A stretch of 64,000 nucleotides of DNA. Origin: Carallia brachiata. Lineage: Eukaryota > Streptophyta > Magnoliopsida > Malpighiales > Rhizophoraceae. A program made the position numbers and the translations under genes. How positions within the stretch are numbered: the first letter of the stretch is position 1; each line of letters starts with the position of its first letter. Where the stretch lies: positions 3,589,250 through 3,653,249 of the forward strand of contig JADCRB010000016.1 of NCBI GenBank assembly GCA_021464245.1, given 5' to 3'. Shown here in pieces: positions 28,381 through 63,690 of the stretch. The notes beneath the pieces are model-generated. The model did not search any database, had not been told where the DNA came from, and saw only the letters and a list, made by a program, of their open reading frames with translations.

Positions 28381-28390
28381 ATAATTGTGA

Positions 28391-28495: not shown

Positions 28496-28869
28496 TGATG
28501 TAGGATGAATAGGAAGAACAACCTAAGTCAGGAATCCACCCGACAACTAATCACTCGGGAATCCACCCGAAAAGAATCGAGAATCCACTTGAAAGAAATT
28601 TGTATGTAATCAATATTCAATTGCATAAAGTTTGAAAAAACAATAAAGGTTCAAGCTCTATTTATAGAGCTACATAGGTAAATCTTAAACCGAAACAAAT
28701 AACTGCTAACAGATAATTACGGAAATAACTGAAAAATAAACACATAGTTAACACGTCCTAAACAAGAGAGAATCTAATAACTGAATAACAAATCCTATCC
28801 TACGTGGACCGAAACTTTCAGAATTTCTTCCGAGAGAAGAAATTTTTTTCAGCAACTGCAACTGCATCA
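28496..28869 (-). repeat. Chromovirus 3' LTR (374 bp)
   Basis: Minus strand begins TGATGCAGTTGCAGTTGCTG right after a purine tract (CCGGAGGGGAA) and ends CCTATTCATCCTACATCA. Contains a TATA box CTATAAATAGAGC at about 28,658-28,670. The last codons of the integrase/chromodomain frame run into it (stop at 28,818). Confidence 0.85.
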
Positions 28870-30420: not shown

Positions 30421-30856
30421 AGCAGCTTTGCTTTCCATACCAGAGCAATGTTTAAGCACAAAAGAATACTCATTAAGAAATTCAACCCATTTAGCATGCT
30501 TAGCAAATTTCTTTTGAGAATTCAAATAACGTAAAGCTTGATGGTCAGAAAACAAAACAAACTCCTTAGGAACCAAATAGTACCTCCAATGACGCAAAGA
30601 CTGAACAACAGCATAAAACTCCTTATCATGTATAAAGTACCTTTGCTTCGCTTCATTGAGTTTTTCACTGAAAAAGCAATGGGGTGTCCTTCCTGACTCA
30701 GGAATCCCCTAACGAACCTCTGATAGAAGGAGGCTAAACTAGAAATCTACGAGCTTCAGTAAGAGACTTAGGCTCAGGCCACTCTTGAATGACTCAAACC
30801 TTTTCAGGATCCACAGCTATACCACAAGCAGAAACAATAAATCCTAAGAATAACAC
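30421..30856 (-). pseudogene. Chromovirus RNase H region
   Basis: Minus strand HDKEFYAVVQSLRHWRYYLV, FVLFSDHQALRYLNSQKKF, AKHAKWVEFLNEYSFVLKH, SKAADALSS. These match the RT-linked RNase H of Ty3/gypsy elements; SDHQAL and N-x-ADALS are the usual motifs. The 5' part (30,640-30,850) has frameshifts and a stop. Confidence 0.8.
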
Positions 30857-31447
30857 CTAAGATTGCAAGAATGTACACTTTTTAAGGTTAGTATACAACT
30901 TAGCTTCTCTAAGAGTAAGGAAAACTAACTGAAAGTGATCTAAGTGTTCTTTCTCGAACTTACTGTAGATAAGGATGTCATCAAAGTAGACCATTGGAAA
31001 CCGATTTATGAATGGCTTCAGAACATGAGTCATAACCCTCATAAATGTACTAGGAGCATTTGATAACCCAAAGGGCATGACTAGCCACTCATATAATCCA
31101 TCCTGCATCTTAAACGCAGTCTTCCACTCATTCCTAGGCCGAATGCATAGCTAATGATAACCACTACGAAGGTCTATTTTAGAATACCAACTAGAACCAG
31201 CTAGCATATCCAACATATCCTCTAGCCTCAAAATTGGAAATCGGTACTTGATGGTGATCCTGTTGATAGCTCGACTATCAACACACATCCTCCATGACCC
31301 ATCTTTCTTGGGGGTCAACAAAGCAGGAACAACACAAGGACTAAGTCTATGTCGTACAAAGCCCTTAGACAACAATTCTTCTACTTGCCTATTTAACTCT
31401 TGATGTTCCTTTAGGTTCATCATCTAGTGTGGAAGATTAGGTAACTG
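30857..31447 (-). pseudogene. Chromovirus reverse transcriptase
   Basis: First part (31,423-31,151): [51 protein letters not shown], then stop. Second part (31,108-30,857): [30 protein letters not shown] with the YFDD active-site box, then KKCTFLQS and stop. The two catalytic aspartates of YFDD and the one in KIDL are kept, but stops split the domain. Confidence 0.88.
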
Positions 31448-32020
31448 TTAACCAGGAACTAAGTCACTGGCATGTTGTATGTCCCGCATGGGTGGGAGCT
31501 CCTCGGGAAGGTTATCACGCATAATATCCACAAATTCCTTGAGTAATTTATCAAAAGAAGAAGGAAGAATAGCTCGAGGTGTGCTCGAATGTGGAATAAC
31601 CTCTTTGGAAACAACAACTATCAAATAGTCATTACTCCCTAACTCCCTTTCAAAGGCCTTATGATCCAAAATGTGAAGGCCTTTATTAGCAGAAACATGG
31701 GGAAGAGATTTGGGTTTCGGCCTCGTGTCCTTAACAGAGGGCTTAGCTGGGTTCAGGATGATGTTCTTGCCTTCATACTTGAAGACATAAGTATTCTCCC
31801 GACCATGATTGGTAACATTAAGGTCATAGAGCCAAGGACGACCTAGGAGATTATGAGCCACATCCATGGGTAGAACATCACAATAAACCTTATCCTTATA
31901 GTCGTCTAGTTGAATGGGCACTAAGCACCGCTCTGTGACCGGTAAGGTGGTTTTATTCAACAAAGCTACTCGAATGGTTGCGGATGTGGTTCTGCTTTAA
32001 GGTTCAATCGTGAAAGAGCA
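31448..32020 (-). pseudogene. Chromovirus protease to RT linker
   Basis: A 171-codon frame (31,963-31,448): VYCDVLPMDVAHNLLGRPWL, the conserved segment after gypsy protease (LLGRPW), then a linker KPSVKDTRPKPKSLP and EFVDIMRDNLPEELPPMRDI leading into the RT domain. A frameshift near 31,965 separates it from the protease. Confidence 0.8.
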
Positions 32021-33536
32021 GATTTTGCAACAACATTCATGGTACTCCCTCCATCGATAATCAGCTTACAATTGCGATCTCCAGATCGAATGTAGGTGTG
32101 GAATATGCTTGTACGTTTCCACGTATCATTGTCCACAACAGTAGACAAAACACACCTAACAACAGCACAATGCTGGTCATCATCCTCGAAGTCTTCGGTG
32201 AATTCATCATCCTCACCGGAGTACTCCAAGGGATCAACAACTTGATCTTCGCTCTCTAAGAGATCGTCAGACTCTTTCTCCACAGTGAGAGCACGATCGG
32301 AACAACGAGAGGCAATGTGACCCTTTTTATAGCAACGAAAACACTCAACGAGAGTGTTACTTGCACGAGATTCGGGAGCAGAGCGTACCGGATGAGAAGT
32401 GGAAGGAGTGGAGTGCAAAGAAGTGGAAGGATTGACAGGTTTGTCTTGAGAAATGGAACCAGAAGAAAAGGAGGTTTTGGTTGCATGCACTCCAACAGAG
32501 GGGGACAAGCGCGTGAATGAAGAGGTCTTGAGTACTTCTCAACCTTTAAGGCCTTGTGATAAGCTTCTTCTAGAGAATCAAGACCAAGTAAGAGAATCTC
32601 TTTTTGGATTTCAGGCTTGAGACCGTTGACAAAATGGTTTAGAGTGAGGTAAGGATCTTCATACAATTCACATCTAAGGAGAAGCTCTTCGAATCTAGAC
32701 ATGTAAGCAGTAATGTTAGAAGTCATTTGCCTAAGATTTAGAAGCTGAGAATAGAGTTAACTGCTATGATAGGAGGGAATATATTTAGCTTTTAGCTTCA
32801 TTTTCATGACTTCCCATAGGATGAAAGGAGGCTCACCTAAACGTTCAGCTCTACGAAGTTCATTCCGCCAGAATTTTTAGCTGACCTTACCAATTTCATC
32901 TTTGGAAATTGAACACGCTTAAGATCATTCTTGTCATACCATGCAAAATAATCCTCTAAACTATCAAGCCAGTCGAGAAACACTTCAGCATTCAATTCAC
33001 CATTATCTAACTTGATCTTCCTAGTGATGTCATTGTGATCTGGACATGCATGCATGTGTTGTAGTCTATGATACCTGTCATGAACTCGAGTATACACATC
33101 ATCACGCACATCATCATGCAATTCATGAATAGGATGCCTACGTGTACCCCTAGGGACATGACATGTCGGAAATGGATCATGATAAAAATCCTCTTCATCA
33201 ATATGTCCATGTAGATTTCCATCGAGGGGAAACCTAACAGTTGGTCTCGGGGTGACTAATTCCTAGGGTCCTGTAGGTGAGGCGTAGGAAAATGGTCATG
33301 ACAGAACCCTCAACATAGGTTGCCCCAATTGGCTGTCCAACAGATTCGTCCACTAGTTGTTTGTCCAAACGTTTTAAAATTGCATTCAGTTGGGTGGACA
33401 AATTAGCAAAGTCATTTCTAAGGCTATTCATGTCGGACTGATAAGCAGATTGTGCGGTGTGAACTTCAGCTCGAAACTTATCTATTTTAGAAGTCGGTTT
33501 GGTAGCAGATTTGGCTGTTTCTCGGGTATTAACCAT
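32021..33536 (-). pseudogene. Chromovirus gag, CCHC knuckle and protease start
   Basis: Minus strand from the ATG at 33,536 (MVNTRETAKSATKPTSKIDK, a coiled coil with FANLSTQLNAILKRLDKQ). Next a gag domain in pieces (LNAEVFLDWLDSLEDYFAWY at about 32,960; MSRFEELLLRCELYED and LNHFVNGLKPEIQKEI at 32,700-32,600). Then a CCHC knuckle CFRCYKKGHIASRC (about 32,340) and the protease active site LIIDGGSTMNVVAKSALSRL (about 32,050), where DGGS replaces the usual DSGA/DTGA. At least three frameshifts or stops. Confidence 0.85.
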
Positions 33537-34565
33537 GTTTTATAAAAGAATTATGCTAAGATCAACACTAATTGCAAAAAGTAATATAAAAATTATAAAC
33601 TACTATGATGCACACAATCAAAATAAAATATGGTGAACGAGCGATAATGCTATGGGCAAACAAAAGTATTGGTGATAAAGGAAAACATGGTAAAATTATA
33701 GGTAGTGAAAAAGTTGACAGTATAAAATATGACAGTGATGTTAAAGGAACAGTAAATATGGGGTAATAAAATAGAAGGTAGAAATTTTCTTTTTTTTTTT
33801 TTTTGGACCAAACAAAAATTTACTAAAATATTAAACTGACTTAAAAAATTAATCAAAATTTCAATGAAGAAGAAAATTACCTCAAACTTAATCAAACTTC
33901 CTACTGTCATAGTGATGTGGGGTTGTTTTCCAGCAACGGTGGAACAACTTTGGCGGACGGTAGCAGACTCTGGCAATGTCATCGAGCTCCGGGGACAGTG
34001 AAGAATGGTTCTGGCGAGGGTAGAGAACCACGGGAAGGCCGAAGGGACGTCTGGGTAGCGCTGGCGAAGGGAGCAATGTGCTACCTAGGCGGAACAGAAG
34101 CGGCGCTATGAAACAGATGATTGGATGGCGTCATGGATGATCGATCAAGCCCTGACAGGGACGAAAAATGTTAGATCGGACGTCAGAGAACCTTTTCTGA
34201 TCAAGTTCGAGCGTCGGCGGCAACGAAAAAAGCAGTGATCGAGCGACACGCAAAAGGAAAGCAGTGAGTTTCGAACCCCGTTTGGGGAAATTCCGGTGAG
34301 GCGACGATGCGTGGGTGTCGGGGGTGGACAAATCTGGCGGTGGGGAACCTAGGGAGGTGAGTTTCAGATGTCGCCAGTGGACGGTGAAGGCGGCGATAGT
34401 TCGGCGAGCGGAGTCGATGTCGACGTCGGCGGGGGCTAACAAAAGCTGAGTTTTTGGGATTTGTGTGATTTTTTAATGGTTTTCTGTGATTTTCAAGGTT
34501 AAGAACGATGGAAAACAAGTTTAGGAACATATTTGGTGCGTGATTTAGGATCAGCAACTGCATCA
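33537..34565 (-). other. 5' region of the chromovirus: AT-rich stretch and GC-rich unplaced segment
   Basis: Upstream of gag, 33,540-33,890 is AT-rich with no frame. From 33,900 to 34,460 the DNA is clearly GC-richer than anything else here (GCCGCCTTCACCGTCCACTG, CCGGAGCTCGATGACATTGC on the minus strand). I find no copy of the 374-bp 3' LTR here, only its first bases at the outer end (34,565-34,552). A donor-like TTTGAGGTAATTTTC occurs at about 33,883, so a captured host 5' exon plus intron is possible. No protein is recognised. Confidence 0.5.
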
Positions 34566-34570
34566 GATCC

Positions 34571-35215
34571 TCCAATTAATGCTCTTGTGTAATTTTGTTA
34601 AGGGATGCGTGATGAATTTCCACAGTGTGATCTTGAACTGTTGGAAATAAATTTCACTAAGGGCCAAGGCTTGATCTCGGATGGATGCTGGAACTCCAGT
34701 GAGGGCCGTGTCGGATTGATCTCAGATGGACTGGTTTGACTCCACTAAGGGTTGGGGCTTGATCTCACTCGAACTGGTTTAGCTCCCCTGAGGGCTATAG
34801 GGGTTTAATCTTAGATGGACTGGCTCTACTAAGGGCCGTAGGAGGTTTAATCCCAAACAAATGTTTAATATATTAATATTTTGAATTTTTACTATCGCAT
34901 ATCACAATTTGAGGTGATTAGAGAGTATATACCTAAAATATGTTTAGAAATAAGTATATTAAATATTTTGGACCTTTACTATGAAAGATCGCGCTTAAAG
35001 GCATCCAAAGAGTATGCGCACAAAACATGAAAACTTATAGGTGAGGAAGTTTTGTTAAAGGATTTCACAAATGCTTCTTTGACATGTCGCAAATGGTATG
35101 TTTGCAAAGGATATTTATAGGCCTTTTTGTAAAGCAAGCAAACAATGGCCAATGGCCTTTAGTCAATTCTGGTTACTGCCAACCTTTCTGACTTTTTTTT
35201 TTTTTATAGAGTTAG
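34571..35215 (-). repeat. LTR 10, 5' piece, start truncated
   Basis: Minus strand: continues LTR 10 with sub-repeats, TATTAAATATTTTGG-type motifs, TATA-like CCTATAAATATCC (about 35,113) and GGCCATTGGCC. It breaks at about 35,215 in CTAACTCTATAAAA, before the TGTAAAC start, and joins plus-strand CCCAAATCC repeats. With the 3' piece it makes one LTR. Confidence 0.82.
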
Positions 35216-35990
35216 GAACTGAAAAAAAAGCTCAAACTCATCACGCCTAGATTCCAATTCCAGCTAAAAACTCAAACTCGAAGCCCAAATAAAAAATTGG
35301 GTCCAAACTCGGGTTCAAAAGCCCCAAACCCGGATCCAAATTCCAGCTCAAAATTTAAATTTGAGCTCAAAGTCAGGCTCAAAGTCCCAACTCAATTTCT
35401 GGCCTAAAATCCAAATCCACATTCGGGGGCAGACTCCAAACCTAGACCCAAATCTAAAACCCAAATCGAAGCCTAAATTCAAATTCCGGCCAAAGTTCAA
35501 AACCAAAGTCGGGGGCAAATCCTGAACCCCGACTTAGCTCAACAGCTCATCAACAAATCCAGACTCCTGCCTCGCATGAGTATAAAAGGCGATGACCAAA
35601 TCTAGACTCTCACCTCAAACGAGTATAAAAGGCGAACAACTCAGTAGCAAAAAATAAACTCCTGCCTAACATGAGTATAAAAGGTGAATAGTTCAACAGC
35701 AAATCCACACTCCTGCCTTGCATGGGTATAAAATACAAACAACTCATCAGCAAATCCAGACTCTTGCCTCGAACGAGTATAAAAGGCAACAATCTAACAA
35801 CAGACTCCTAGCTCGCACGAGTAGAAAAGACGAAAACCGACTCTCTTAGGCTGGACGAGTATAAAAGGTGAAACAGCAATAGCAATCTAGAACTCATAGC
35901 CCACATGATTATAAACTGTGAACGGCTCAAAAATAAAATTCAAGACCCAGTCCAAAACTCTTGGCCCACACGAATATAAACTGTGAACGA
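35216..35990 (+). repeat. CCCAAATCC block and minisatellite array 12
   Basis: Plus strand again. CCCAAATCC block at 35,235-35,540, then about nine minisatellite units (CGCATGAGTATAAAAGGCG) and two closing units with TATAAACTGTGAACGG. Confidence 0.85.
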
Positions 35991-36351
35991 CATCAAAAAA
36001 TCATGACCCAGTCCATGATAGTGTTGGCGTCATCAGCACAGGATGCAATTGACTTAAAGCTTCGCCTCAGGCCCCACAAGGTTGGCTGACAAGGATATGG
36101 TGCAACAACTTTTACGACACACATTATTGCCTTGACTTGTTCTATATGTGTCGACCACCACCTCGTTGTCTCTTATGGCAAGAAGAAACGTGAAGGAGGC
36201 CACCACCTAATCCAACACATTCTCTTTTTAACTTTTACATAAAAAAAAGTCAAAAGGAAAAAAAAAGCAACTTTTATTATGTATATATTTCTTGCATTAT
36301 CAAGTCACAGAACTTACTCTTCAGTTGTTCTTTCTCTCTAAAGAAAGAAGA
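35991..36351 (+). pseudogene. WOX remnant: only the EAR-like tail, second example
   Basis: CCCAGTCCATGATAGTGTTG joins the array to the end of the WOX frame. DAIDLKLRLRPH is open, LKLRL at 36,054-36,068. Same breakpoint as the 4.3-kb copy. Then the spacer with TTATTATGTATATATTTC. Confidence 0.65.
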
Positions 36352-41210: not shown

Positions 41211-42830
41211 TAGCATTTTTTTTTCTCTTTTTTTTTTTTTTTGCTTTTTTTGTTTTTTTCTTTTACATTTTTTTGCTTTTTTCGATTTTTTCAAATTTTT
41301 TTATTTTTTAAAAATTTTTTTCTTTTTTTTTTGCTTTTTTTATTTTTTAATTTACACATAACAATGCTTAAGAAGCTTACTGCTTGATCGAGCCTGTTCG
41401 GGATGCATCTCTGATCTGACAACGTGTAAGCGTAGATTCATGCTTACTTTCCTTTGACAGATTCAAAAACACAATGGTCTGGTTGGCTGAAGCTACGTCT
41501 TCCCAGTCCAAAATGATTTTATTTTGGACAATGAGCATTAAGATTAGCTCGTTTAGGACAAAACACTTCTCGGTTGGATGGTTGACTGTGCAGTGATACT
41601 TGCAGAATTTTGAATCATTGACCTGATCCTTCTGATTGGGTTGCTTGCGTTCTACGAGTATGATCAGCTTAGCTTCCAAAAATTGATCGAGAATGCCTGG
41701 AACGTTAGAGTCAGGGAGTGGATCCTTCTTCTGTTCCAACTCTCGCAACGTCGCCTTTCCCTTTCCTTGTTGTATTGGTTAAATTGTTAGCACTGGAGGG
41801 CTCACTTTTATGTTAGCTCCTACTTTTATTGGTGGATTATCAACGACCATCACTTCTGGCCTCCGTCCCAGTCCATTTGGATGGGAATCGTGCCCCCAAA
41901 AGTCTTGATGCTTATCTCTATGTCATGCACACCAGTCGCCAATTGCTCGAAAGTTTGAGGTTTGATACTCTACAAGATGTATAACAGCTCCTAGTGCATC
42001 CCTTTAATGCACATTTCTATGGCGGAAGTCTCAATCAGACGATCCTTGCAATCGAGACTGAGAGCACGCCATCTATTTATGTATTCAATGACAGACTCTC
42101 CTTTCTTTTGCTTTGCTCTTGTGAGCTCCATCATGCTCACTACTTGATGGGTGCCAAAAAATCTATTGAGAAACTCACGTTGCAGCTGTTCCCAACTATC
42201 AATCGATTCTGGTTGAAGGATTGTGAACCAGGTGAAGGCAGTGTCCTTGAATGAACGAACAAACTGTTTCACCAAAAGGTCACCGTAAGTTCCTGCATTG
42301 TTGTAGGTTTTGACGAAGTGAGCAATGTGCTGCTTTGGATCACCTCGTCCATCGAATTGTTGAAACTTGGGCAGTTGGTAGCCGAAGGGCATGCTGAGGT
42401 TTTCAATCCGTCTCGTGTATGGTTTGATGTATATTTGTGAACTTGAAAATAGTGCACTTAACGGACTGTATTCATTATCATGTCTTTTAATTATTGGACA
42501 GATAATAAAGCAATAGAACTTGAAAGCGGTAGCTGTGCTGGACCACCTTGTTGTTTTCAACTATGAAAATGTTGGCTGAAGTTGCTTCTTGGAGTGAAAC
42601 CAGGCAGATATGGCTATTCCTCATTGGTCTCAGGATCAACTTGTATTAGAGCCTTTTCTTTGAGATTGGCAATTTCTTGATCCTTTTATTCCAAAACTTT
42701 CATCAACTAGAAAATTTTATTTTCCAATTCTCTGATCTTGCCTTTTGCGTTGGTTGTGCTTGTCATCATGACTGCGACGATGTTGGTGTTGAATTCCCCT
42801 CTGAATTTTTTCTTTTTTTAGGAAGCAGAA
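41211..42830 (-). pseudogene. gag pseudogene, best preserved copy, with pol end
   Basis: Minus strand. The Retrotrans_gag domain is open in a 189-codon frame (42,560-41,991): MPFGYQLPKFQQFDGRGDPK, QHIAHFVKTYNNAGTYGDLL, VKQFVRSFKDTAFTWFTIL, SWEQLQREFLNRFFGTHQV, ELTRAKQKKGESVIEYINRW. A second frame (41,748-41,377) has LPDSNVPGILDQFLEAKLII and a knuckle CKYHCTVNHPTEKC, spacing C-x2-H-x4-H-x4-C, a CHHC variant seen in some plant gypsy elements. It then runs into the pol end out of frame (SKLLKHCYV and stop). The A-rich tract is at 41,355-41,213. The N-terminal coiled coil lies upstream at 42,790-42,580. Confidence 0.82.
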
Positions 42831-42846
42831 GATGGAATACAGAGAG

Positions 42847-42864
42847 GACCCACTAGGCATGTCA
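42847..42864 (-). other. Primer-binding-like site of LTR 15
   Basis: Minus strand TGACATGCCTAGTGGGTC, a mutated version of the family site. Confidence 0.5.
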
Positions 42865-42871
42865 AAAATTG

Positions 42872-43166
42872 TGAAGGACCATATGCTTTCAGCTTGCAAA
42901 TAGTTAGACTCAGATATACAGATACAAATTACAAGTGAAAATTTTGAAATTTATCTGGACCAATCACTAGTTGGATCCTCCGATTAATGCTCTTCTGTAA
43001 TTTTGTCAAGGGATGACTGATGAATTTCCACAGTGTGATCTTGAATTGTAGGAAATAAATTCCACTAAGGGTCAAGGCTTAATCTCAGGTGGATGCTGGA
43101 ACTCCGGTGAGGCCCGTATGGGCTTGATCTCAGATGGACTAGTTTGACTCCACTAAGGATTGTTAG
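42872..43166 (-). repeat. LTR 15, 3' part only
   Basis: Minus-strand LTR end with AAATTTTCACTTGTAATTTG and two or three sub-repeats (AGTGGAGTCAAACTAGTCC). It breaks at about 43,166 into a second gag fragment. Confidence 0.75.
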
Positions 43167-45314: not shown

Positions 45315-46064
45315 CCTCGAGCCTCGTGGGGTTGACCGACAAGAATAAGGTGCAACGATTTTTGCAATACGTGTCAGTCATTGCTTCGTTTGACCCTTAT
45401 GACAAAAAGGGACTTAAAGCAGGACCCTACTACATTCTACATATCTCCTTTTTGACTTTGAAAAAAAAAATCAACAAAAGGGGGGCAGCTTTTATTGTGT
45501 ATATATTTCCTGCGTCCTCAAGTCAAAAAAACACCCCTCAACTTTTCCTTTTTTTTGAAGAAAGAATATGGCTAGTCCCTGTGTTTTTTTTTTCATGAAA
45601 TTCTTTCATCAAGAAGCTATAGACACAAGAGTCAGAAAAAGAAAGAGTTGTTCGCTTCGAAACTATCGAATCTTAGCCTCTAACGCTATGTTGGTCGATG
45701 AAATTCCAACCACTCTCCTTACATCACGACATACGGGAGAGTCATCATTACAACCCGTCTTTCTGTGAGTTAGCCTTGTTGTGCCATGCTGCTGGGCCTT
45801 TGTCATGGGAATGTTCAAGTTCTCTGCCTACTGCATCATCCTCACCAGAACCATGGGACTTCAATTTCTATATTTGCAGGAGGGCTGACATCCTCAAGGT
45901 CATATCGGTTCCTGTGAAAGCTCGACAGCAGCATGGCTTGTTGGAGTTAGAGACCTCAAGATTCAATGTTCATCAAGACGTCTCAATCTTCAAACTGGAC
46001 TTCAAGACTTGGTTTAGATCACGTCCCAAGATCCTTCCTCACTAAGCCTTGAAGTGGGGGCATT
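45315..46064 (+). pseudogene. Post-EAR spacer and MASP ORF region
   Basis: ATGGCTAGTCCCTGTG at 45,568 gives MASPCVFFFMKFFHQEAIDT, RVRKRKSCSLRNYR, AMLVDEIPTTLLTSRHTGES, a 66-codon frame. It follows the family frame, then skips an internal part (PTTLLSSH joined to TSRH). Tail to CCTTGAAGTGGGGGCATT before the LTR. Confidence 0.5.
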
Positions 46065-46948: not shown

Positions 46949-47512
46949 AATTGTGAGAGGACAATATGTTTCAAACCTGCAACAGTTAGACTCAAAAAAT
47001 ACATATACAAATTACGAGTGAAAATTTAAAATTTATATGGGCTCGATCTCTGTGTGATCCTCCAATTAATGATCTTTACGATTTTGTTAGGGGCCCCAAC
47101 GACTTGATCTTGACTTAAAAGGTTGAATTTCCACAGCTTGCTTTTGAACTGATGGAAATAAATCTAACTAAGGGTCGAGGCTTGATCTTGGGAGACTATT
47201 GGAACTCTAGTGAGGGTTGTATGGGCTCGATCTCAGATGGACTGGTTTGACTCCACTGAGGATCGGGCCTTGATCCCATTCAGACTAGGTTTAACTCCGC
47301 TGAGGGTCGTAGAGGCTTGTTCTCAAGTGAACTGACTCTGCTGAGGGTCGTAGGAGGCCTAATCCCAGACAGATGTTTAATATTTTAATATTTTAAATTT
47401 TTGCTCTCGTAGACCCTAATCTAAGGTGGCCGGAGAGTATATACTCAAAATATGTATGGAATTGAGTATGTTAAATATTTTGGGCTTTATATCCAGAATA
47501 TCTCCCTTAATT
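46949..47512 (-). repeat. LTR 18, start missing
   Basis: Minus-strand LTR from its 3' end (GTTTGAAACATATTGTCCTC) through sub-repeats to GATATTCTGGATATAAAGCCC. It breaks at about 47,512 into WOX copy G. Confidence 0.8.
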
Positions 47513-47824
47513 GAGGGCGAAGCTATACTGGTGAGGTCTACTATAGGAACAACTGTGGTAGAAACAGACTATTATGTAGAAATAGCAGCTCTTTATGTTG
47601 CTCTCTCTCTCTATTTCTCCAGTTCTGGAACTAGAAATAAACCTTTTTTGTTCGACTGCCCGTATAACCGCATTCACGAAGCAAGCCAGAAGACTTGTGA
47701 TGCATTAGGAGTAGTACCTCCATTGTTGTGGAAGACTTCCCTCAGATTTGTAGTTGCATCGGAGTTGGGTGCCATCTAACGTGGCTATCTCCTTCCTTGT
47801 CCTGATGTCTTGCAACTGGTTCTA
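47513..47824 (-). pseudogene. WUSCHEL-type homeobox pseudogene, copy G
   Basis: Minus strand. The start codon is mutated to ATA (47,824-47,822): EPVARHQDKEGDS, then RWHPTPMQLQI, and a lost base before the EEVF/GSLPQQ segment. The text GGTTTATTTCTAGTTCCAG gives VYF-stop-FQ: the helix III Trp is TAG (47,633-47,631). The frame continues NWRNRERATQRAAIST... and is cut at 47,513 by LTR 18. It belongs with copy I by its AAGAATRGAA start and CATCAGGACA sequence. Confidence 0.75.
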
Positions 47825-48480
47825 TTCTTCTCGATGAAAAAGGAGTAGAGGCTTGATATGTAGTGAAAACGATTCAAGACTGAAGCAATGACTCAAGCTC
47901 AAACTCTTGATTGCTTTTATTTTTTGGGCCATTCACAATTTACACTTATGAAGGCCAGGAGTTTTGGACTAGGCCTTGTATGGTTGTTGCTGTTTTGCCT
48001 TTTGTGTGGGTTAAGAGTATGCTTTAACTATTAGTCGTTACCTTTTATACTCGTGCGAGGCAGGAGTTTGATTTACTGGATTGTCGCCTTTCATACTCAT
48101 GCGAAGAAGGAGTTTTGAACTATTGTGTTGTTACGTTTTATACTTGTGCAAGGTAGGAATATTGAACTTTGTTGTCGCCTTTTATACTCGTGCGAGGCAG
48201 GAGTGTTGAACTGTGTTGAGTTGAACTGTTGCGTTGCTAATTTGGGCTTTCAGTCAGTGGTTGAGGTTTGTCCCCGAATTTGGATTTGGGCTGTGGGCCA
48301 AGATTTGGTTTTAGGTTTTGAGCCCGAGTTTGAGTTTGGGCTTTGAGTTTCAAACCTTAGTTTAGATTTGAACTTCGAGTTTTAGTCGGGGTTCGAGATT
48401 TGCCTCTGAATCTGGATTTGGATTTTGAGGAAAGATTTTGGGCTTGACTTTAGATTTTTGGGCTAAACTTACACATGAGC
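47825..48480 (-). repeat. Pre-WOX spacer, minisatellite array 16 and CCCAAATCC block
   Basis: Minus strand: CCCAAATCC block (48,475-48,235), a short array of about six units (48,230-47,990) with closing units, then a spacer in which the acceptor-like CAGG reads CATATC (about 47,862). Confidence 0.8.
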
Positions 48481-50067: not shown

Positions 50068-50693
50068 AAAATCTTGGAGGAGTACTTCCACAACAATGAA
50101 GGTACTTGTCCTAGCTTATCACAGCTCTCCAAACTTACTACACGATTGCAGCTGTACAGAGCAGTCGAAATAAAAAAAGTATATTTCTAGTTCTAGAACT
50201 AGAGAAATAGGGAGAGAGCAACACAAAGAGTTGCTATTTCTGAAGCACAGTCTACCATCACAACTGTTCTTGTGGTAGATCTCACCACTATGGCGTCATC
50301 CTCAAATGAGGCAGGTCCAAACTCTACCATTGCAATGATCCGTCAAGGCTATTTCAATCAAAACTATAGCCTATGGGCATCGTCCTCAAACGAGGCTGGT
50401 CTAAACTTTACCACTGCAATGATCTCTCAAAGATGTTTCAACCAAAACTATAGCCTGTGGGACAACGCTACTAGTCCTGGTGGTTTTATGGAGTCAACCA
50501 GTAGTTTATCCCTAACAAGAACTTCAGTCCAGGAGGAAACTTTGCACCAGGATGGAGCTTCAGCAAAACTCTATCTCTCTTTTCGGTACATTCTGACGAC
50601 ATCAACCAACAAGAGAGTTCCAGTAGTATTAATGTGACCGGTTTGCCTAGCGAAGACGCAATTGATTTTGAGCTGCGTCTTGGCCCCCACTAG
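50068..50693 (+). pseudogene. WUSCHEL-type homeobox pseudogene, copy H, with in-frame duplication
   Basis: Begins inside homeodomain helix I (ILEEYFHNNEGTCPSLSQLS) right after LTR 19; the ATG part is missing. VYF is followed by TAG (50,188-50,190) in place of Trp, then two more TAGs. The next part is open: NRERATQRVAISEAQSTITT, then ASSSNEAGPNSTIAMIRQGY FNQNYSLW followed at once by a second, diverged copy of the same 28 residues (50,293-50,460). The C-terminal segment is open in another frame: WUS-box-like TLSLFS (50,568-50,585), INVTGLPSEDAIDFELRLGP, His and a TAG at 50,691. The FELRLGPH end with a stop may show the original C-terminus. Confidence 0.78.
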
Positions 50694-51547
50694 GCCGACC
50701 GACAAGGATAACGTGCAATGACTTTTTGCAGTGCACGGTATTGACTTGTGCAACATGCCTCGATCACTACTTCGTTTGTCTTGTATGGCAGAAAGAAACG
50801 TGAAGGAGGACCCTACTAGATTATGCATATCTCCTTTTCAACTTTGAAAAAAAAAAAAAAAAAGGGAGGCAACTTTTGTTATATATATATTTTCAGCATT
50901 CTTAAGTCACAAAACTAATCCCTCAGCTCTTCTTTCTCTCAGAAGAAAAAACATGGCTAGTCCCTGTGTTCTCTTTTTCAGGGAATTCTTTAATCAAGAA
51001 GCTGCAGACACAAGAGTCAGAAAGAGAAAGAGTCGTTCGCTTTGAAACTCTTAATGAAGAAAAAATATGACGCCATCTTGGTCGATGAAGTTCTAACCAC
51101 TCTCCTTAATTCACATCTATCACAACGAGCTAAAAAGTTATGACCATCAACATCTGTTTTCAAATGTGGCAGCGGACGAGGAAGTTCTAACTAGTCTGCT
51201 TACGTCACGACAAATGGGAGAGTCATCACTACAGCCCGTCTCTCTATGAGTTGGCCTTGTTGTGCCATGGTGTTGGGCCTTCGTCATGGGGAAGGCTCAA
51301 ATTCTCTACCTACTTCATCATCCTCACCAGAACCATGGGACTTCAATTTCTATATTGGCTAGATGGCTGACATCCTCAAGGTCGTATTAGTTCTTATGGA
51401 AGCTCGACAACAGCTGGGCTAGTCAGAGTTGAAGACCTCATGATTCAATGTTCATCAAGATCTCTCAAACTTCTAACTGGACTTCAAGACTCAGTTCGAA
51501 TCATGTCCCAAGATCCTTCCTGACCAGGCCTTGAAGTGAGGGCATTA
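50694..51547 (+). pseudogene. Post-EAR spacer and MASP ORF region
   Basis: ATGGCTAGTCCCTGTG at 50,953 opens MASPCVLFFREFFNQEAADT, RVRKRKSRSL, then TGA. Upstream TTATATATATATTTTC and an A-run. Tail to GACCAGGCCTTGAAGTGAGGGC. Confidence 0.5.
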
Positions 51548-51632: not shown

Positions 51633-52504
51633 TAAACTCAAAAAAAAAAAAAAAAGGAAGAGGAATGGTTAAGAGCTGACATCTAGAAGGAGGAAAAAGA
51701 AAAAAAATCAGAGTCAAGAGCCGACATCTGGAAGAGAGAGAAAGAAAAAAGTTAGCGAAATATTGGTAGTACAGTACTATATAGTGTCTCCTCCCAGCCT
51801 ATAAATAGGCGCAAAATTTCCAACAGCCAATCACACCAAAGAAACACGGGGGGCACAGCAAAAATTAAACTGAAGGGGCCAAAGTATTGTTTAAAACTTT
51901 TCGTTTATGGTTTCGTATTTTGGGCATACGCTCCCCAAACTCTATTAGGGGAGATATTGCAGATATAAAACCCAAAATATTTAATACACTCAATTCCATA
52001 CATATTTTAGGTGTATACTCTCTGATCGCCTCAGATTAGAATCTACGAGTGTAAAAATCTAAAATATTAAAATATTAAACATCTGTTAGGATTAAACCTC
52101 CTACAGCCCTCAGCAGAGTCAGTCCACCTGAGAATAAACCCTCACGGCCCTCAGTGAAGTTTAACCAGTCCGAGTGGGATCAAGCCCCAGCCCTAAGTGA
52201 ACTCAAACCAGTTCATCTGAGATCAAGCCCATACGGCCCTCACCAGAGTTCCAGCAGTCACTGGAGATCAAACCTTGGCCCTTAGTGGAATTTATTTCCA
52301 TCAATTCAAAAGCAAGTTGTGGAAATTCAACTTCTTTCGATCAAGATCAAGCCTTTGCTGCCCTTGAGAAAATCATACAGGAGCATTAATTAGAGGATCA
52401 CATAGAGATCGACTCCACATAAATTTTAAAATTTCACTTGTAATTTGTATATGTATCTTTTAAGTCTAACTGTTGCAGGCTTAAAACATATAGGTTCTAT
52501 TGAC
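51633..52504 (+). repeat. LTR 20 (5' LTR of the reference element)
   Basis: Starts TATAAACTCAAA (TGTAAAC mutated), GTTAAGAGCTGACATCTAGA, TATA box CCTATAAATAGG (TATAAATAG at 51,800-51,808), common middle, sub-repeats, end GGTTCTATTGACA. Pairs with LTR 21. Confidence 0.85.
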
Positions 52505-53225
52505 AATTTTTGGTATGCCCGATTAGACATCTCTGCCTCTTATTTTTTGCTCCTTAAAAAACAAAAAAAAAAAGAGGATGGTGGCACGGTGGCCATTTCA
52601 TGGCCTATAGGCCATGAAATGGCCAACGACAACACAACCCTAAGGCCAAAAAGAAGGGACAAGAATCCGGCGGATCACTATCATAAGACTGCCTCCGCCG
52701 ACAAATAGATGATTGTTTATAGGCCATGAAACGGCCAACACCAACACAACCCCAAGGCAAAAAAAAAGGGACAGGAATCTGGTGCATCACTAGCATAAGA
52801 CTACCTCCACCAGCAAATAAACGATTATTCCATTACCTACATCAACTACCTTACTTGGGTACGCAGATCCAAAAATTCGGGTGTGGACACAATTTCTCAC
52901 CACTAAAAAAAAATTAAAATAGAGAATCTGCAGCTCATACAGCAGTAAGATCACTCACTCGACTCTCTCACTGAATGGAGAAGTCGACTATTCACTCCAA
53001 CCGAAGTTGGGGGCAACGAGTCAAATCCTTACCAAGCCCCTTCACTCCAGTCTTCCTACTTGGGGCATAGTTTCCATCCAACAGGACGAAAAGCACCAAT
53101 CCAGTGACAACCTCACTTTCAAATGGGATGGGTCATACTTGGTTCAAGAAATCTACACCAACAACGCTTACATATTGTCAAACGAAAAGGACATCCAAAC
53201 TACTCCAATCAGCAGGTAAATTTAA
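52505..53225 (+). other. Primer-like site, 5' leader with tandem duplication, pol end
   Basis: TGGTATGCCCGATTAGAC at 52,511-52,528, then the palindrome (52,591-52,624). A roughly 113-bp segment (GGCCATGAAATGGCCAAC... to ...ACAAATAGATGATTG, 52,605-52,718) is repeated at 52,719-52,832. Next CATCAACTACCTTACTTGGG, AAGTCGACTATTCACTCC, and the pol end in frame: LTFKWDGSYLVQEIYTNNAY, ILSNEKDIQT, stop at about 53,218. K-W-D-G-x-Y-x-V...AYxL is the closing part of plant gypsy pol (integrase tail). Confidence 0.75.
52591..52624. repeat. Perfect 34-bp palindrome in the leader
   Basis: Reads the same on both strands without a mismatch; core CATGGCCTATAGGCCATG. Imperfect versions occupy the same place in other leaders (2,656; 11,590; 44,940; 49,107; 56,535; 60,335). 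Position just downstream of the primer-like site suggests an RNA stem-loop for dimerisation or packaging; function is inferred. Confidence 0.85.
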
Positions 53226-53431
53226 AAAGCATTGTTTTGTGTAGATAAAAAATTCAAAAAAATAAAAAAAAAGCAAAAAAAATTCAAAGAAAAAAAAACT
53301 ACAAAAAAATGAAAAATGAAAAAAAAAGTCTGAAGCTTATGTGCAGGTTTAGCCCAAAAATCTAAATTCGAGCCCAAAATCCTTCCTCAAAATCCAAATT
53401 CAAATTCAGGGGTAGACCCCAAACCCCGACT
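53226..53431 (+). repeat. A-rich tract and short CCCAAATCC block
   Basis: A-rich to 53,330, then only about 90 bp of CCCAAATCC block (GGGGTAGACCCCAAACCCCG). No gene. Confidence 0.8.
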
Positions 53432-54164
53432 CAGATCAACAACAGACTCCTGCCTCACACGGGTATGAAAAGGCGACAATCCAACAGTACACTCCTGCTT
53501 CGCACGAGTATAAAAGTGACAGCTCAGCAAATTCAACACTCTTTCCTCGCACGAGTATAAAATTCGAATAGCTCCACAACGCCGTTCAACACTCCTGTTT
53601 CGCATGAGTATAAAAGGCAAACAATTGAATCAAACTCCTGTCTCACACGAGTATAATAAGCGACAGCTACAACAACGAACTAGACTCCTAGCTTGCACGA
53701 GTATAAAAGGCGAGACGACAATAACAAAACAGACTACTGTCCCATATGAGTATAAAAGGCGAATAACTCAACCCAAGCAGACTCTTACCTCGTACGAGTA
53801 TAAATGGCGAACAGCTCAGCACAACAGTCTCCTGCCACGAACGAGTATAAAAGGCGACAACATAATACAAAATCACACTCCTATCTTGCATGAGTATAAA
53901 AGGGAAATGGATCAACAACACACTCCTGTCAGGTACGAGTATAAAAGACGACAACTCAACAGTCAAAGCATACTCCTAACCCGTACAAAAGGCGAAACAG
54001 CAACAACCAAACAAGACCCAGTCCAAAACTCCTGGCCAACATGAGTATAAACTGTGAACGACCCTAAAAATAAAAGCAATCAAGAGTTTGAGTCTCAGTA
54101 ATTGCTTTAGTCTTAACTCGACTTTATCATATATCAAACCTCTGCTCCTTTTTCATTGAGAAGA
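53432..54164 (+). repeat. Minisatellite array 17 and pre-WOX spacer
   Basis: About 15 units (GCACGAGTATAAAAGGCGA) to 54,055, the closing unit with TATAAACTGTGAACGACC, then a spacer of the second lineage (GTTTGAGTCTCAGTAATTGC, TTTATCATATATCAAACC), where the acceptor-like CAGG is not kept. Confidence 0.88.
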
Positions 54165-54890
54165 ATGGAAGCAGTTGTAGGACATCAGGATAGGGAAAGA
54201 GATAGGTCACCCAGCATTAGATGGCACCCAACTCCGGCGCAACTGCAAATCCTAGAGGAAGTCTACCGAAACAATTGAGATACTATTCCTAATGCATCAC
54301 ATCTCTTCCAGCTTGCTTCGCATTGTACGGGGCCGTCAAAACGAAAAAAGTGTATTTCTAGCTCTAAGCCAGAGAAATAGAGAGAGAGTAACACAAAGAG
54401 CTATTGTGTATACAGAACAATCTGTTCCTACCATCACAGTTGTTCCCATAATAGATCTCACTAGTCTAGCTTCGTCCTCAAGTGAAGCTGGTCTAAACTC
54501 CACCACTGCAATGGTCCCTCAAGGTTACTTCAACCAAAGTTGTAGCTTGTGGGACTACACATGCTGGTCCTAGTGGTTTTATGGAATCAGCTAGGGGTTC
54601 ATCCCTTATGGATACTGTAGTCCAAGAGGGAATTTTGTATCAGGGGAGAACTATTCCGGCGAGACTTTATCTCTTCTTCTGGCACACCCTGGCGACGTCA
54701 ATTGGTTGGAAGGTTCCAGTAATGTTGACGCCATTGGCCCAGCAAACGAGGATGCAATTGACTTGAAGCTGCGTCTCAGGCCCCGCTACGTCGATCAACA
54801 AGGCAAGGGTACAACGACTTTTTGGGAACTGCGCCTCGAGTCCCGTGATGTCGGTCGACAAGGATAAGGAGCGACAACTTTGGCAGCATA
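54165..54890 (+). pseudogene. WUSCHEL-type homeobox pseudogene, copy I, C-terminal half open
   Basis: The ATG at 54,165 opens MEAVVGHQDRERDRS, PSIRWHPTPAQLQILEEVYR, NN then TGA: the helix I region is intact and closest of all copies to a canonical WOX start (RW-x-P-T-P). Beyond, DTIPNASH reads on; the helix III Trp is TAG (54,359-54,361). The C-terminal part is one frame: GETLSLLLAHPGDVNW (WUS-box-like TLSLLL at 54,664-54,681), GPANEDAIDLKLRLRPR (EAR-like LKLRL at 54,763-54,777), then a duplicated stretch with WELRLESRDV (ELRLE at 54,826-54,840) and stop. The second EAR-like motif is shared with copy C. Confidence 0.8.
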
Positions 54891-55097
54891 CGAAATTGAC
54901 GTTTGTAACACGCGTCGACCACCGCTTCATTTCTCTCTAGTGGTAGGAAGAGACGTGAAAAGGGACCCCACCAAATTCTACACATCTCCTTTTTGACTTT
55001 GAAAAAAAACAGGCAGCTTTTGTTGTGTATATATTTCCTGCCTGCTCAGATCATAGACTCACCCCTCAGAACTCTTCTTTCTCTCTGAAGAAAAAAG

Positions 55098-55268
55098 ATG
55101 GCTAGTCCCAACACTTGCTTTTATAGGAAATTCTTTAATCAAGAAGCTGCGGATACAAGAGTTAGAAAGAGAAAGAGTCGCTCACTTCAAAACTCTCGAA
55201 TCTCAGCCTCTGACGCTATCTTGGTCGATGAAGTTCCAACCACTCTGCTTAGTTCACATCTATCATAA
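55098..55268 (+). CDS. MASP ORF, intact copy (56 codons)
   Basis: ATGGCTAGTCCC to TAA: MASPNTCFYRKFFNQEAADT, RVRKRKSRSLQNSRISASDA, ILVDEVPTTLLSSHLS. Basic RVRKRKSR at residues 21-28. No known domain or membrane segment. It sits 75 bp after a TATATATTTCC and near a CTTTCTCTCTGAAG run. It keeps the frame that most other copies show broken. It may be a captured first exon or chance sequence. No strong support for translation. Confidence 0.35.
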   Translation: MASPNTCFYRKFFNQEAADTRVRKRKSRSLQNSRISASDAILVDEVPTTLLSSHLS

Positions 55269-55666
55269 CGAGCCAAAAAGTTGTGACCATCCTCATCTGT
55301 TTTTAGATGCGGCGATGGACAGGGAAGTTCCAACTACTCTCCTTACGTCACAACATATAGGAGAGTCATCACTATAGCCCGTCTCTTTGTGAGTTGGCCT
55401 TGTTGTGCCATGATGCTGCTGGGCCTTCCCCATTGGAAGGTCAAGTTCTTTGGCTGCTGCATAATCCTCACCTAAGCCATGGAACTTCAAGTTCTATAAA
55501 GTAACCTTTGCGAGTTATGGAAGCTTGCAGCAGCTAGGCTAGTCGAAGTTAAAGACCTTAAGATTCAATGTTCATCATGACGTCCCGAGCATCAAACTGG
55601 ACTTCAAGACTTGCTTCAGATCACGTCCCAAGATCCATCCTCACCAAGCCTTGAAGTGGGGGCATT
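55269..55666 (+). other. 3' internal tail and purine tract before LTR 21
   Basis: Family tail (GTTCCAACTACTCTCCTTACG, GCCATGGAACTTCAAGTTC, CAAGACTTGCTTCAGATCACG) ending CCTTGAAGTGGGGGCATT, the polypurine tract position directly before TGTAAAC. Confidence 0.7.
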
Positions 55667-56449
55667 TGTAAACTCAAAAAAAAAAGAAGAGGAAAGTCAA
55701 GAGCTAACGTCTTGAAGGAGGAAAAAAAAAATCAGAGTCAAGAGCCGACATCAAGAAGAGAGAAAGAAAAAAAAAATCAATCAAAAGTTGGTGGCACAGT
55801 ACTACACAGTGTCTCCTCCCAGCCTATAAATAGGTGCAAAATCTCCAACAGCCAATCACACCATAAAAACACGGGGGGCACAACAAAAATTAAATTCAAG
55901 GGGCCAAAGTTTTGTTTAAAACTTTTCCTTTACGTTTTCGCATTTTGGGTATAAGCTCCCCAAACTTCATTATGGGAGATATTCTAGATATAAACTCAAA
56001 AATATTTAATATACTGAATTCCATACATATTTTCGGTATATACTCTTCAATCGCCTCAATTTGGGATCTACAAGAGTAAAAATTCAAAATATTAAAATGT
56101 TAAACATCTGTCTGGGATTAAGCCTTCTACGACCCTCAGCAGACTAAGTTCAACTGAGAACAAGCCCCTACGGCCCTCAGCAGAGTTAAACCAATCCGAG
56201 TAGGATCAAGCCCCAGCCCTCAGTGGAGTCAAACTAGTCCATCTGAGATAAAACTCATATGACCCTCAACGGAGTTCCAACAGTCCCTTGAGATCAAGCC
56301 TCGGCCCTTGACAACCTTGAAAAGGATCATTAATCAGAGGATCACACAATGATTGACCCCACACAAATTTCAAAATTTTTATCTGTAATTTATATCTGTA
56401 TTCTCAAGTCTAATTGTTGTACACTTGAAACATACGAGTTCCCCTCACA
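55667..56449 (+). repeat. LTR 21
   Basis: TGTAAACTCA start, GTCAAGAGCTAACGTCTTG and GTCAAGAGCCGACATC, TATA box CCTATAAATAGG (TATAAATAG at 55,825-55,833), AAATATTTAATATACTG, sub-repeats, end GTTCCCCTCACA. 783 bp. Shared edge between the reference element and the next internal region. Confidence 0.87.
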
Positions 56450-61399: not shown

Positions 61400-62690
61400 T
61401 CCAACCCAACACGGTTCAACACTCCTGCCTCGCCTGAGTATAAAAGGCGACAACTACAATGACAAATTAAACTCTTAGCCCACACGAGTATAAAAGGTGA
61501 CAACACAGTTCAACATTCCTGCCTCGCACGAGTATAAAAGGTAACAACAAAATAATTCAACACTCCTGCCTCACATGAGTATAAACGGTGACAATCTAGC
61601 AAATTAAACTCCTGCCTCGCACGAGTACAAAAGGCAAACAATTCAACAGTTCAACAGTCATGCCCCGCACGAGTATAAAAGGTAACAGATCAATAATAGG
61701 CTCCTGCCTCACACGAATATAAAAGGTGACAACACGGTTCAACACTCCTGCCTCACACGAGCATAAAAGGCGACAATCCAACAGCACACTCCTGCTTCGC
61801 ACAAGCATAAAACGTGGCAGCTCAGCAAATTCAACAGTCCTGCTTTGCACGAGTGTAAAAGGCGAACAACTCCACAATACCATTCAACACTCCTGCCTCG
61901 CATGAGTATCAAGAGCAAACAGCTCCACAACACTCTTCAACAATCCTGCTTCGCACGAGTATAAAAGACGAACAACTGAATCAAACTCTCGCCTCGCATG
62001 AGTAGAAAAGGTGACAACTACAACAACAAACTAGACTCCTAGCCCGCATGAGTATAAAAGGCGAGACACAACAGCAAAATGGACTCCTGCCTCGCACGAG
62101 TATCAAAAGCGAACAGCTCAACAACACTGTTCAACACTCCTGCTTCGCACGAGTATAAAAGGCAAACAACTGAATCAAACTCTTGTTTCGCATGAGTATA
62201 AAAGGCGACTACTACAACAACAAACTAGACTCCTAGCCCGAATGAGTATAAAAGGCGAGACGGCAACCGCAAAATAGACTCCTGCCTCACACGAGTATAA
62301 AAGGCGAACAACTTAATAGCATAGTTCAACACTCCTACCTCGCACGAGTATAAAAGGTGATAACTCAACTACAACTCAGACTCCTAGCCTGTACGAGTGT
62401 AAAAGGGGACAACCTAACAACATACTCCTAGCTCGCACAAGTATAAAAAACGAATAGCTGAACAACACTTTTGCCTTGCACGAGTATAAAAGGCAACAAC
62501 ACAGTGCAACACTCCTGTCTCGCATGAGTATAAAAGGTGACAACCCAACAACACACTCTTGCCTCGCACGAGTGTAAAAGGCTACGACTTAATAGTCAAA
62601 GCATACTCCTAACCCACACAAAAGGCAAAATAGTAACAACCAGACAAGGCCCAGTCCAAAACTCTTGGCCTGCGTGAGTATAAATTGTGA
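61400..62690 (+). repeat. Minisatellite array 19, longest in the window
   Basis: About 32 units in 1.3 kb, most with GCACGAGTATAAAAGGCG. Higher-order similarity is visible: the set with CTAGACTCCTAGCCCGCATG, GAGACACAACAGCAAAATGG and CACTCCTGCTTCGCACGAG occurs at about 61,990-62,140 and again at 62,190-62,290, so groups of units were duplicated together. Confidence 0.9.
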
Positions 62691-62804
62691 ACGACTCAAA
62701 AGGATAAAAATGATTAAGGGTTTAAGTCTTAATCACTATTCTACTCTCAACCTTTTACTCGTTCTTACTGCAGGTCAAGCTTCTACATCCTTTCAGTAAA
62801 AAAG
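62691..62804 (+). promoter_or_regulatory. Pre-WOX spacer with acceptor-like site
   Basis: GTTTAAGTCTTAATCACTATTC, then CCTTTTACTCGTTCTTACTG, CAGG with AG at 62,772-62,773, 32 bases before ATG. This is the clearest copy of the putative 3' splice site. Confidence 0.4.
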
Positions 62805-63430
62805 ATGAAACTAGTTGTAAAATGTCAAGATAAGGAAGAGCATAGGTCACCACGCATTAGATGGCAACCAAGTCCAATGCAACTGCAAATCTTGGAGGAG
62901 TACTTTCGCAGCAATGAAGATACTTGTCCCAGCTTATCACAGCTCTCCCAACTTACTTCACGAATGCGGCCGTACAGAGCAGTCAAAACAAAAAAAATGT
63001 GTATTTATGGTTCCAAAACCGAAGAAACAGGGAGAGAGCAGCACAAAGTTGTTGTTTCTGAAGCACAGTCTACCATCACAGCTGTTCTTGCGGTAGATCT
63101 CACGAGTATGGCGTCGTCCTCAAATTAGCCAGGTCCAAACTCCACCGCTGCAATGATCCCTCAAGGCTATTTCAACCAAAACTGTAGCCTATGGGACTAC
63201 ACATACTATTCCTAGTGGTTTTATGGAGTCAACAAGTGGTTCATCCTTTACTGGAACTTCAGTCTAGGAGGAAACTTTGCACCAAGAGGGAGCTGCTCCA
63301 GTGAAACTCTACCTCTCTTTCTGGTATACTCCAGTGACGTCAACCAGTAGGAAAGTTCCAGTAGTGTCAACGTCACCGGTCTGCAAAGCAAAGACACAAT
63401 TGACTTGGAGCGGCGTCTCGGGCCCCATAA
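62805..63430 (+). pseudogene. WUSCHEL-type homeobox pseudogene, copy J
   Basis: ATG at 62,805: MKLVVKCQDKEEHRS, PRIRWQPSPMQLQILEEYFR, TCPSLSQLSQLTSRMRPYRA with helices I and II in frame. A one-base change in the A-run after AVKTKK shifts helix III (in the other frame VYLWFQNRRNRERA, Trp TGG at 63,008-63,010). A second indel restores the first frame at VSEAQSTITAVLAVDLTSMA, SSSN then TAG. The WUS-box is TLPLFL (63,306-63,323) and the EAR-like motif is degraded to LERRL (63,405-63,419), both in one frame. The 107-codon open run is the longest with intact helices I-II. A two-indel copy, so not functional as is. Confidence 0.82.
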
Positions 63431-63690
63431 GGCCGGACAACAAGGATATAGTGCAACAACTTTTTGCAATGCACAGTATTCACTTGTGTGACACGCCTCA
63501 ACCGCAGCCTCATTTGTCTCGTATTGTAAAAAGAAATGTGGAAGAGGTCCACACCAGATTCTGCATATCTCATTTCTGACTTCGAAAAAATAATCAAGAA
63601 AAGGTGGCAGTTTTTGTTGTGTATATATTTCTTGCGTTCTTAAGTCGCACAGCTCACCCCTCAACTCTTCTTTCTCTCTGAAGAAAGAAT

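Follow-up and report, generated by a model that had tools for sequence, protein, structure and literature searches.

The closest described system comes from Vigna. A 2023 meeting report (PMC10714607) describes, for Vigna marina and V. riukiuensis, WOX genes that have been multiplied inside LTR sequences; the amplification is recent, with identical LTRs and TSDs, and exceeds 1000 copies in V. riukiuensis. The original prediction for the locus studied here had regarded such a retrotransposon cargo as undescribed, a belief that this report contradicts; a literature search, which covered subscription papers incompletely, yielded no WOX-carrying LTR elements besides it. In both cases an LTR element has increased the copy number of a WUSCHEL-related homeobox gene. 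By contrast with the recent Vigna copies, those described here are old and decayed, with cassettes that are 71–84% identical, a minisatellite, gag remnants and two cassette types; the accessible part of the Vigna report states neither WOX subclade nor anatomy (PMC10714607). A WOX cargo in an LTR element is already known from Vigna, and the present family differs from it in age and preservation.

Retand/TAT elements of the Ty3/gypsy type likewise have a long region from pol to the 3' LTR in which tandem repeats and additional coding sequence are found, and the LTR size observed here falls in their range. According to PMC11963269, however, no known domain is assigned to their sense frames, and TRP28 is encoded by antisense ones, whereas the present family has a sense WOX gene. 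TRP28, the antisense mark of Retand/TAT, had no match in five antisense frames of the unit w13 described below. Gypsy elements of orchids that encode an m6A demethylase domain are similar in that a host-type enzyme or regulator is kept as an extra frame, but the protein is a different one, and the excerpted text names no homeodomain among the domains recorded from 121 angiosperm genomes (PMC9289625).

The window, i.e. the whole stretch of 64,000 nucleotides analysed here, is filled with dead copies that all belong to a single family of Ty3/gypsy LTR retrotransposons. LTRs, PBS-like sequences and polypurine tracts (PPTs), as found in LTR retrotransposons, are present, and neighbouring units have LTRs in common. 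There are ten PBS-like sites across the window, an eleventh candidate at 6018 being judged false, and ten PPT-LTR junctions according to our reading of 19 candidate rows, nine of which were dismissed as chance or partial. Pfam recognised gag (Retrotrans_gag) in a unit at 41446..43158 on the minus strand (3.9e-14), which is cut short of the WOX position, and in the w6 unit (5.6e-6); the gag piece of the w8 unit was missed by Pfam and is assigned on DNA similarity. Relatives of gag in a protein search, in which 443 of 472 candidates passed, are plant proteins named Ty3-gypsy, and the best match among the best 120 of the 443 has 71% identity over 78%. Eudicots account for the plant names noted among these 120; one further record is labelled Salmonella.

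Cassette homology was detected at 14 sites, 12 of which contain coding sequence (w1–w4, w6–w9, w11–w14), and none of the 14 lies outside element remnants in the 64-kb window. This agrees with the predicted occurrence of at least ten WOX-like copies or pieces at the same place and in the same orientation in repeated elements. In copies on both strands the gene is in sense, with a 44-bp minisatellite before it and the PPT after it. Based on our own reading of the cassette and minisatellite maps, ten of 18 arrays with at least two units have a coding piece behind them on the same strand, two have cassette flank only and six have neither. Of the slot originally proposed between the end of pol and the 3' LTR, the position just before PPT and 3' LTR stands, while "after pol" is weakly supported because no recognisable pol remains in the window copies, save a short piece resembling the end of an integrase, which had no match in Pfam.

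Six of the 12 coding copies (w1, w6, w7, w8, w13, w14) span most of the gene. Among the copies of type I, w14 (62679..63650, plus strand) is the best preserved, w1 occupies 256..1208 (plus), w12 (50069..50909, plus) is missing its 5' end and has an 84-nt insert, and w7 (18941..20512, minus) has its homeodomain split by an insert of about 590 bp. The w6 unit (13148..17360, plus) comprises an LTR, gag, an 18-unit minisatellite and a type I WOX copy at 16641-17360. The most complete unit is that of w8 (23157..35222, minus), in which a chromovirus interrupts the 5' LTR and which further has gag, the minisatellite, a type I WOX copy at 24571-25439 and a 3' LTR; its LTR pair is 77% identical. Type II is represented by w13, by the 3' part w3 (6018..6542, plus) and by the 5' half w11 (47505..47942, minus). 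The gene's last 18 codons and 3' flank remain in w2 (4284..4564, plus) and w9 (36019..36311, plus), and w4 is a 98-bp WOX piece (8347..8444, minus). Only the 3' flank is left in w5 (9099..9323, plus), with four gene codons, and in w10 (45360..45525, plus), with none.

The interval 51633..56449 is an LTR-to-LTR unit whose features, including the cassette w13, all lie on the plus strand. Its 5' LTR lies at 51630-52505 and also serves as 3' LTR of the w12 unit. The LTR end with one of the PBS-like sequences (52502..52528) is followed by a leader of the gag-less type (52520..53219), at the end of which is a candidate integrase C-terminal remnant, suggested by a motif but negative in Pfam. The minisatellite (53504..53947) has ten units with the core CTCGCACGAGTATAAAAGGCGA, which had no matches in IMG/VR. 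Its TATAAAA stretch is conserved at 92–98% over 176 units; a promoter under selection was considered and rejected, there being no sign of selection because A/T positions outside the stretch are equally well kept (93–98% for three of them) and C/G positions decay everywhere. The type II cassette (about 54046..54946) consists of 5' flank, gene and a duplicated EAR region. Its decayed frame runs from the ATG to the EAR-like motif (54165..54786), with the homeodomain starting at 54219, a WUS-box remnant, GETLSLLLAH, at 54659..54688, and the EAR-like motif DLKLRL together with an in-frame 60-bp tandem duplication, common to w3, at 54760..54888. A 3' spacer separates the cassette from the PPT GAAGTGGGGGCA (55653..55664), and the 3' LTR (55667..56449, TG at about 55667 to CA, about 783 bp) is at the same time the 5' LTR of the unit that follows.

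The carried gene is a WUSCHEL-type (WUS-clade) homeobox gene. In tblastn, unmended DNA of all eight homeodomain-bearing copies matched the homeodomains of WUS and STENOFOLIA (STF), with best E values per copy from 1.8e-9 to 0.003; the w13 homeodomain piece by itself, 34 codons long, gave 4.7e-6 to 6e-5. Chance is excluded: the sole other match reached an E value of 0.16, and among 50 dinucleotide shuffles the best gave 0.045. A 208-residue read-through scored 2e-11 against Pfam Homeodomain (43.9 bits, cut-off 22.9), single unmended pieces all staying under that cut-off (best 19.6 bits). Against PDB it matched WUSCHEL (2.3e-14) and STENOFOLIA (2.5e-14), with the next at 0.09, and the scripted subfamily-I majority behaved alike (3.8e-14, 4.1e-14, next 0.16). 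The WOX identity originally proposed is thereby confirmed, as are the WUS box and the EAR-like motif: the read-through frame contains a homeodomain, a WUS box and an EAR-like motif near the C terminus, and is without intron. TLxLF is present in four of the eight copies covering the WUS-box site (w6, w12, w14, w3) and related forms in the other four, the P being retained in w1 and w3; permutation of the read-through C terminus produced TLxLF in 244 of 100000 cases. PMC5977200 describes the WUS box as confined to the modern clade and the EAR-like motif as occurring in the WUS and WOX5 subgroups, and the C-terminal EAR-like motif found here is in line with either subgroup. The extra homeodomain residue, said in PMC3701499 to mark the WUS clade, is counted as present because the element aligns gap-free to WUS (6ry3) and with one gap to STF (6wig); in the copies it is H, C, N or R, not Y.

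Homeodomain length, WUS box and C-terminal EAR-like motif thus resemble the WUSCHEL subclade, but this gene is element-borne and intronless, and of 63 homeodomain positions only 27 agree with the WUS consensus, as compared with at least 53 in host WUS rows. Raw homeodomain identity fails to single out WUS (WUS 27/63 and, with provisional sequences, WOX1 28/62 and WOX13 27/62). In a tree the copies group on a very long branch with the modern clade (WUS and WOX1-5; unstarred 93/91), not inside WUS. A protein search with the single read-through gave no match among 129 candidates. In a profile search, 117 of the best 120 of 3457 matches have WUS-length homeodomains, a ranking that leans to WUS because the query included the Arabidopsis WUS and STF homeodomains; the closest proteins among these 120 reach at most 44% identity over at least 30% of the query. 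The C terminus alone matched these 120 weakly (best E value 7e-4, in a small preselected set).

Types I (w1, w6, w7, w8, w12, w14) and II (w3, w11, w13) align from the last minisatellite unit onward. Their common minisatellite-to-gene junction supports what the original prediction had put forward, namely that a single capture was probably followed by amplification. Divergence between the types is limited to the cassette, reaching background at about 54946, and exchange or separate uptake may explain the types because the 3' spacer does not track the division into cassette types (Mantel r 0.05, p 0.36). Both observations would also be expected if divergence and constraint had arisen in the host, in a fast-evolving WUS paralogue that was taken up late or twice, giving rise to the two types; we consider this improbable, as the two types have their upstream junction and some 120 bp of 5' flank in common and no close protein appeared among the best 120 profile matches. 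That many WOX pieces are crowded together might even recall a host WOX cluster later invaded by elements, but this reading, already contradicted by the slot that the gene keeps on either strand, after the minisatellite and before the PPT, by the shared junctions and by the absent intron, can practically be dismissed.

A weightier alternative, albeit still an unlikely one, is that the WUS-type gene was transduced once and merely copied along, its protein being of no use to the element. Plant LTR elements are known to take up genes (PMC7264820), and the copies in the window are dead: each copy readable over at least 66 codons has at least two stops, and between-copy substitutions are without codon pattern (1244, 1259, 1316). 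The dN/dS interval for type I versus type II includes 1 (0.61, CI 0.33–1.14), the mean within type I is 0.90, and w2 and w9 are from elements that have lost most of the gene. Against a mere passenger speaks the preferential retention of the homeodomain core despite heavy divergence, with 14 of 16 family-invariant residues kept versus 11 of 37 other WUS-conserved residues (p 1.8e-4; invariance provisionally defined from eight Arabidopsis homeodomains); a core-less homeodomain might have escaped notice. Likewise, 14 of 28 fixed single-codon differences between the types are synonymous versus 0.298 expected (p 0.019), an excess seen in frame only (out-of-frame controls, p 0.44 and 0.29). The sole fixed indel between the types within the frame is 3 nt long, and both types go back to a nearly open frame. 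Core retention and in-frame synonymous excess suggest a protein that may have stayed functional during element spread; the other tests are weak or null, including that of informative versus singleton sites (p 0.34) and an indel contrast (p 0.007–0.013) that becomes 0.03–0.05 with a 37+22 gap read as one 60-nt duplication.

Taking these data together, we favour, at a probability of roughly 0.6, the view that a Ty3/gypsy family took up a WUSCHEL-type gene long ago, most likely from spliced mRNA, and that the gene, placed in sense between minisatellite and PPT, made a functional accessory protein while the family was active. Production of the protein during that phase is inferred because the core of the homeodomain, the WUS box, the EAR-like motif and the frame could still be recognised in the common ancestors of both types despite heavy change. 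WUSCHEL maintains plant stem cells, and WUS-clade proteins control them; plants lack a germ line set aside early, and insertions can be inherited only if they arise in meristem lineages. The putative accessory transcription factor would bind DNA via its homeodomain and recruit repressors via WUS box and EAR-like motif, and might thereby aid expression or copying of the element in shoot stem cells, the cells that pass new insertions on to the plant's offspring. More tentatively, and with the odds somewhat against it, we speculate that the WUSCHEL-derived factor became a standing accessory gene under selection, enabling the element to influence these stem cells or to be active there. If true, a retrotransposon keeping a stem-cell regulator would be a plant parallel of viruses carrying growth regulators, element exploitation of meristem control would become testable, and, together with the Vigna case, retrotransposons would have captured a stem-cell regulator repeatedly. 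Copies carried by elements may also swell the number of WOX genes counted in annotated genomes.

The family described here belongs to a kind already known: LTR elements that have captured a regulator of the host. The original prediction held such cargo to be undescribed, which is contradicted by a Vigna case of WOX genes within LTR elements: according to an excerpt of PMC10714607, reporting a talk by K. Naito, WOX copies accumulated in V. marina and V. riukiuensis, the latter having more than 1000, mostly between identical LTRs with TSDs. A homeodomain is not named among the extra domains in the consulted section of a survey of 121 angiosperm genomes (PMC9289625), and PMC11963269 reports that the sense frames of Retand elements encode no known domain. 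The present family differs in its age and anatomy, in having two types of cassette and in showing signs of prolonged constraint.

Many decayed and rearranged copies of this one family, on both strands, make up the bulk of the window (64 kb, 40.7% GC). A unit runs from an LTR (about 0.8 kb, TG...CA) through a PBS-like site and a leader, joined in some units by gag, to a stretch that is A-rich and C-rich; next come a minisatellite with units of about 44 bp and the WOX cassette (the WUSCHEL-type gene with its flanks), and the unit closes with a 3' spacer, then the polypurine tract GAAGTGGGGGCA and an LTR. LTRs are common to neighbouring units, which leaves no target-site duplication to read. The Pfam domain Retrotrans_gag was matched at 41994-42560 (3.9e-14) and in the unit of w6 (5.6e-6; w1 to w14 are the places with cassette homology), and the gag piece of the w8 unit, which is below Pfam detection, was assigned through 83% DNA similarity. 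Relatives of gag in a protein search are Ty3-gypsy proteins of plants. Pol was not found in the copies of the WOX-carrying family within the window, except for what we take, from a motif, to be a possible integrase end at about 53.1-53.2 kb (Pfam negative).

Cassette homology occurs at 14 places, 12 of which hold coding sequence, in line with the at least ten copies or pieces originally counted; w5 and w10 have the 3' flank only. WUSCHEL (WUS) and STENOFOLIA homeodomain queries matched all eight homeodomain-bearing copies (w1, w6, w7, w8, w11, w12, w13, w14) in unmended DNA with best E values of 1.8e-9 to 0.003; the single other match had an E of 0.16, and 50 shuffles gave nothing better than 0.045. 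One column frame of 208 codons extends across the copies from M through homeodomain and WUS box to an EAR-like motif. The proposed homeodomain was borne out by the protein read across these decayed copies, which matched Pfam Homeodomain (2e-11) and, in the PDB, WUSCHEL and STENOFOLIA (about 1e-14; next entry 0.09-0.16). In its C-terminal part the ordered pattern of TLxLF and then the EAR-like motif was reached in 0 of 100,000 permutations. The w7 homeodomain is interrupted by an insert of about 590 bp with 59-bp tandem repeats (19595-20186). At w2 (4141-4327) and w9 (35867-36049) the minisatellite is followed almost directly by the gene's last 18 codons; these two perhaps represent a subfamily that lost the homeodomain.

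Three published criteria all point toward the WUS subclade: the WUS box, a feature of the modern clade, the EAR-like motif, a feature of the WUS and WOX5 subgroups (both from an excerpt of PMC5977200), and an extra homeodomain residue, given for the WUS clade in the portion of PMC3701499 consulted. This residue varies among the element copies (H, C, N or R); in angiosperms it is usually tyrosine. A profile search, biased toward WUS through its own query rows, passed 3457 of 7549 candidates, and among the best 120 of these 3457 the homeodomain was of WUS length in 117 and one residue shorter in three. Because raw homeodomain identity did not discriminate among WOX types and the tree gave the long-branched copies no closer position than alongside the modern clade, a placement that was unstarred, identity with WUS itself is likely but not proven.

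No intron interrupts the frame from the homeodomain across the WUS box to the EAR-like motif. Given that the WUS box of the WOX5 subgroup lies on a second exon, as an excerpt of PMC5977200 states of AtWOX7, which lacks it, and that the intron predicted for spruce WUS is longer than 2 kb (PMC3701499, in part), this would fit uptake from spliced RNA. All copies reaching that far, of type I (w1, w6, w7, w8, w12, w14) and type II (w13, w3, w11), align from the last minisatellite unit onward; therefore a single uptake, as originally proposed, is the simplest reading. Over the cassette's first 450 bp the types differ by 0.25-0.32, as against 0.14-0.17 within type I. Since this excess divergence stops at about 54946 and the 3' spacer of seven units shows no such split (Mantel r 0.05, p 0.36), it appears that cassettes either passed from one element lineage to another or were already diverged before. 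In type II, the EAR region carries an in-frame 60-bp tandem duplication in w13 (54769-54888) and w3 (near 6250-6370).

Was the protein working? On the negative side, every row read over 66 or more codons has at least two stops. Changes between copies favour no codon position, so that decay went on freely once the copies had inserted. The informative-site test was null, dN/dS between types was 0.61 (interval 0.33-1.14; out of frame 1.14 and 0.86), and within type I it averaged 0.90. On the other side, 14 of 28 fixed single-codon differences between types are synonymous (expected 0.298, p 0.019), as are 10 of 17 under a stricter cut (p 0.014); frame-shifted controls gave p 0.44 and 0.29, and 0.73 and 0.59, respectively. 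Fixed length differences number one in frame (3 nt, per 580 columns) versus 1, 7, 1, 37, 22 and 9 nt outside it (per 349 columns); with 37 and 22 counted as one 60-nt duplication, 5 lie outside the frame against 1 inside (p 0.03), and of frame-breaking differences 3 lie outside against 0 inside (p 0.053). Of 63 homeodomain positions only 27 agree with the WUS consensus (host WUS rows, at least 53). Yet the homeodomain keeps 14 of 16 family-invariant residues versus 11 of 37 other WUS-conserved ones (p 1.8e-4), the invariant set being taken from eight Arabidopsis sequences and recognition of copies itself favouring a kept core. A neutral relic would lose both classes alike, and this retention is the strongest sign of a working protein. 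The homeodomain of such a protein would bind DNA, and its WUS box and EAR-like motif would recruit co-repressors; made by the element, it could increase how strongly the element is expressed or how many stem-like cells the apex contains.

Several further features of the elements were observed. LTR 5' parts (e.g. at 2006, 37157, 55918 and 23739) form several groups that differ in upstream (U3) sequence and have the downstream part in common, and the leader of the w13 unit contains a 112-bp tandem duplication (52606-52826). A chromovirus-like element (28496-34565; integrase end with SH3_Tf2-1, 1.8e-17, and Chromo, 2.4e-7), flanked by a 5-bp duplication, GATCC (28491-28495 and 34566-34570), has inserted into the w8 unit within its 5' LTR. 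The minisatellite units (18 arrays, e.g. 61434-62580) hold a TATA-box-like core; their A and T positions are kept and their C and G positions decayed, as expected from the loss of methylated cytosines.
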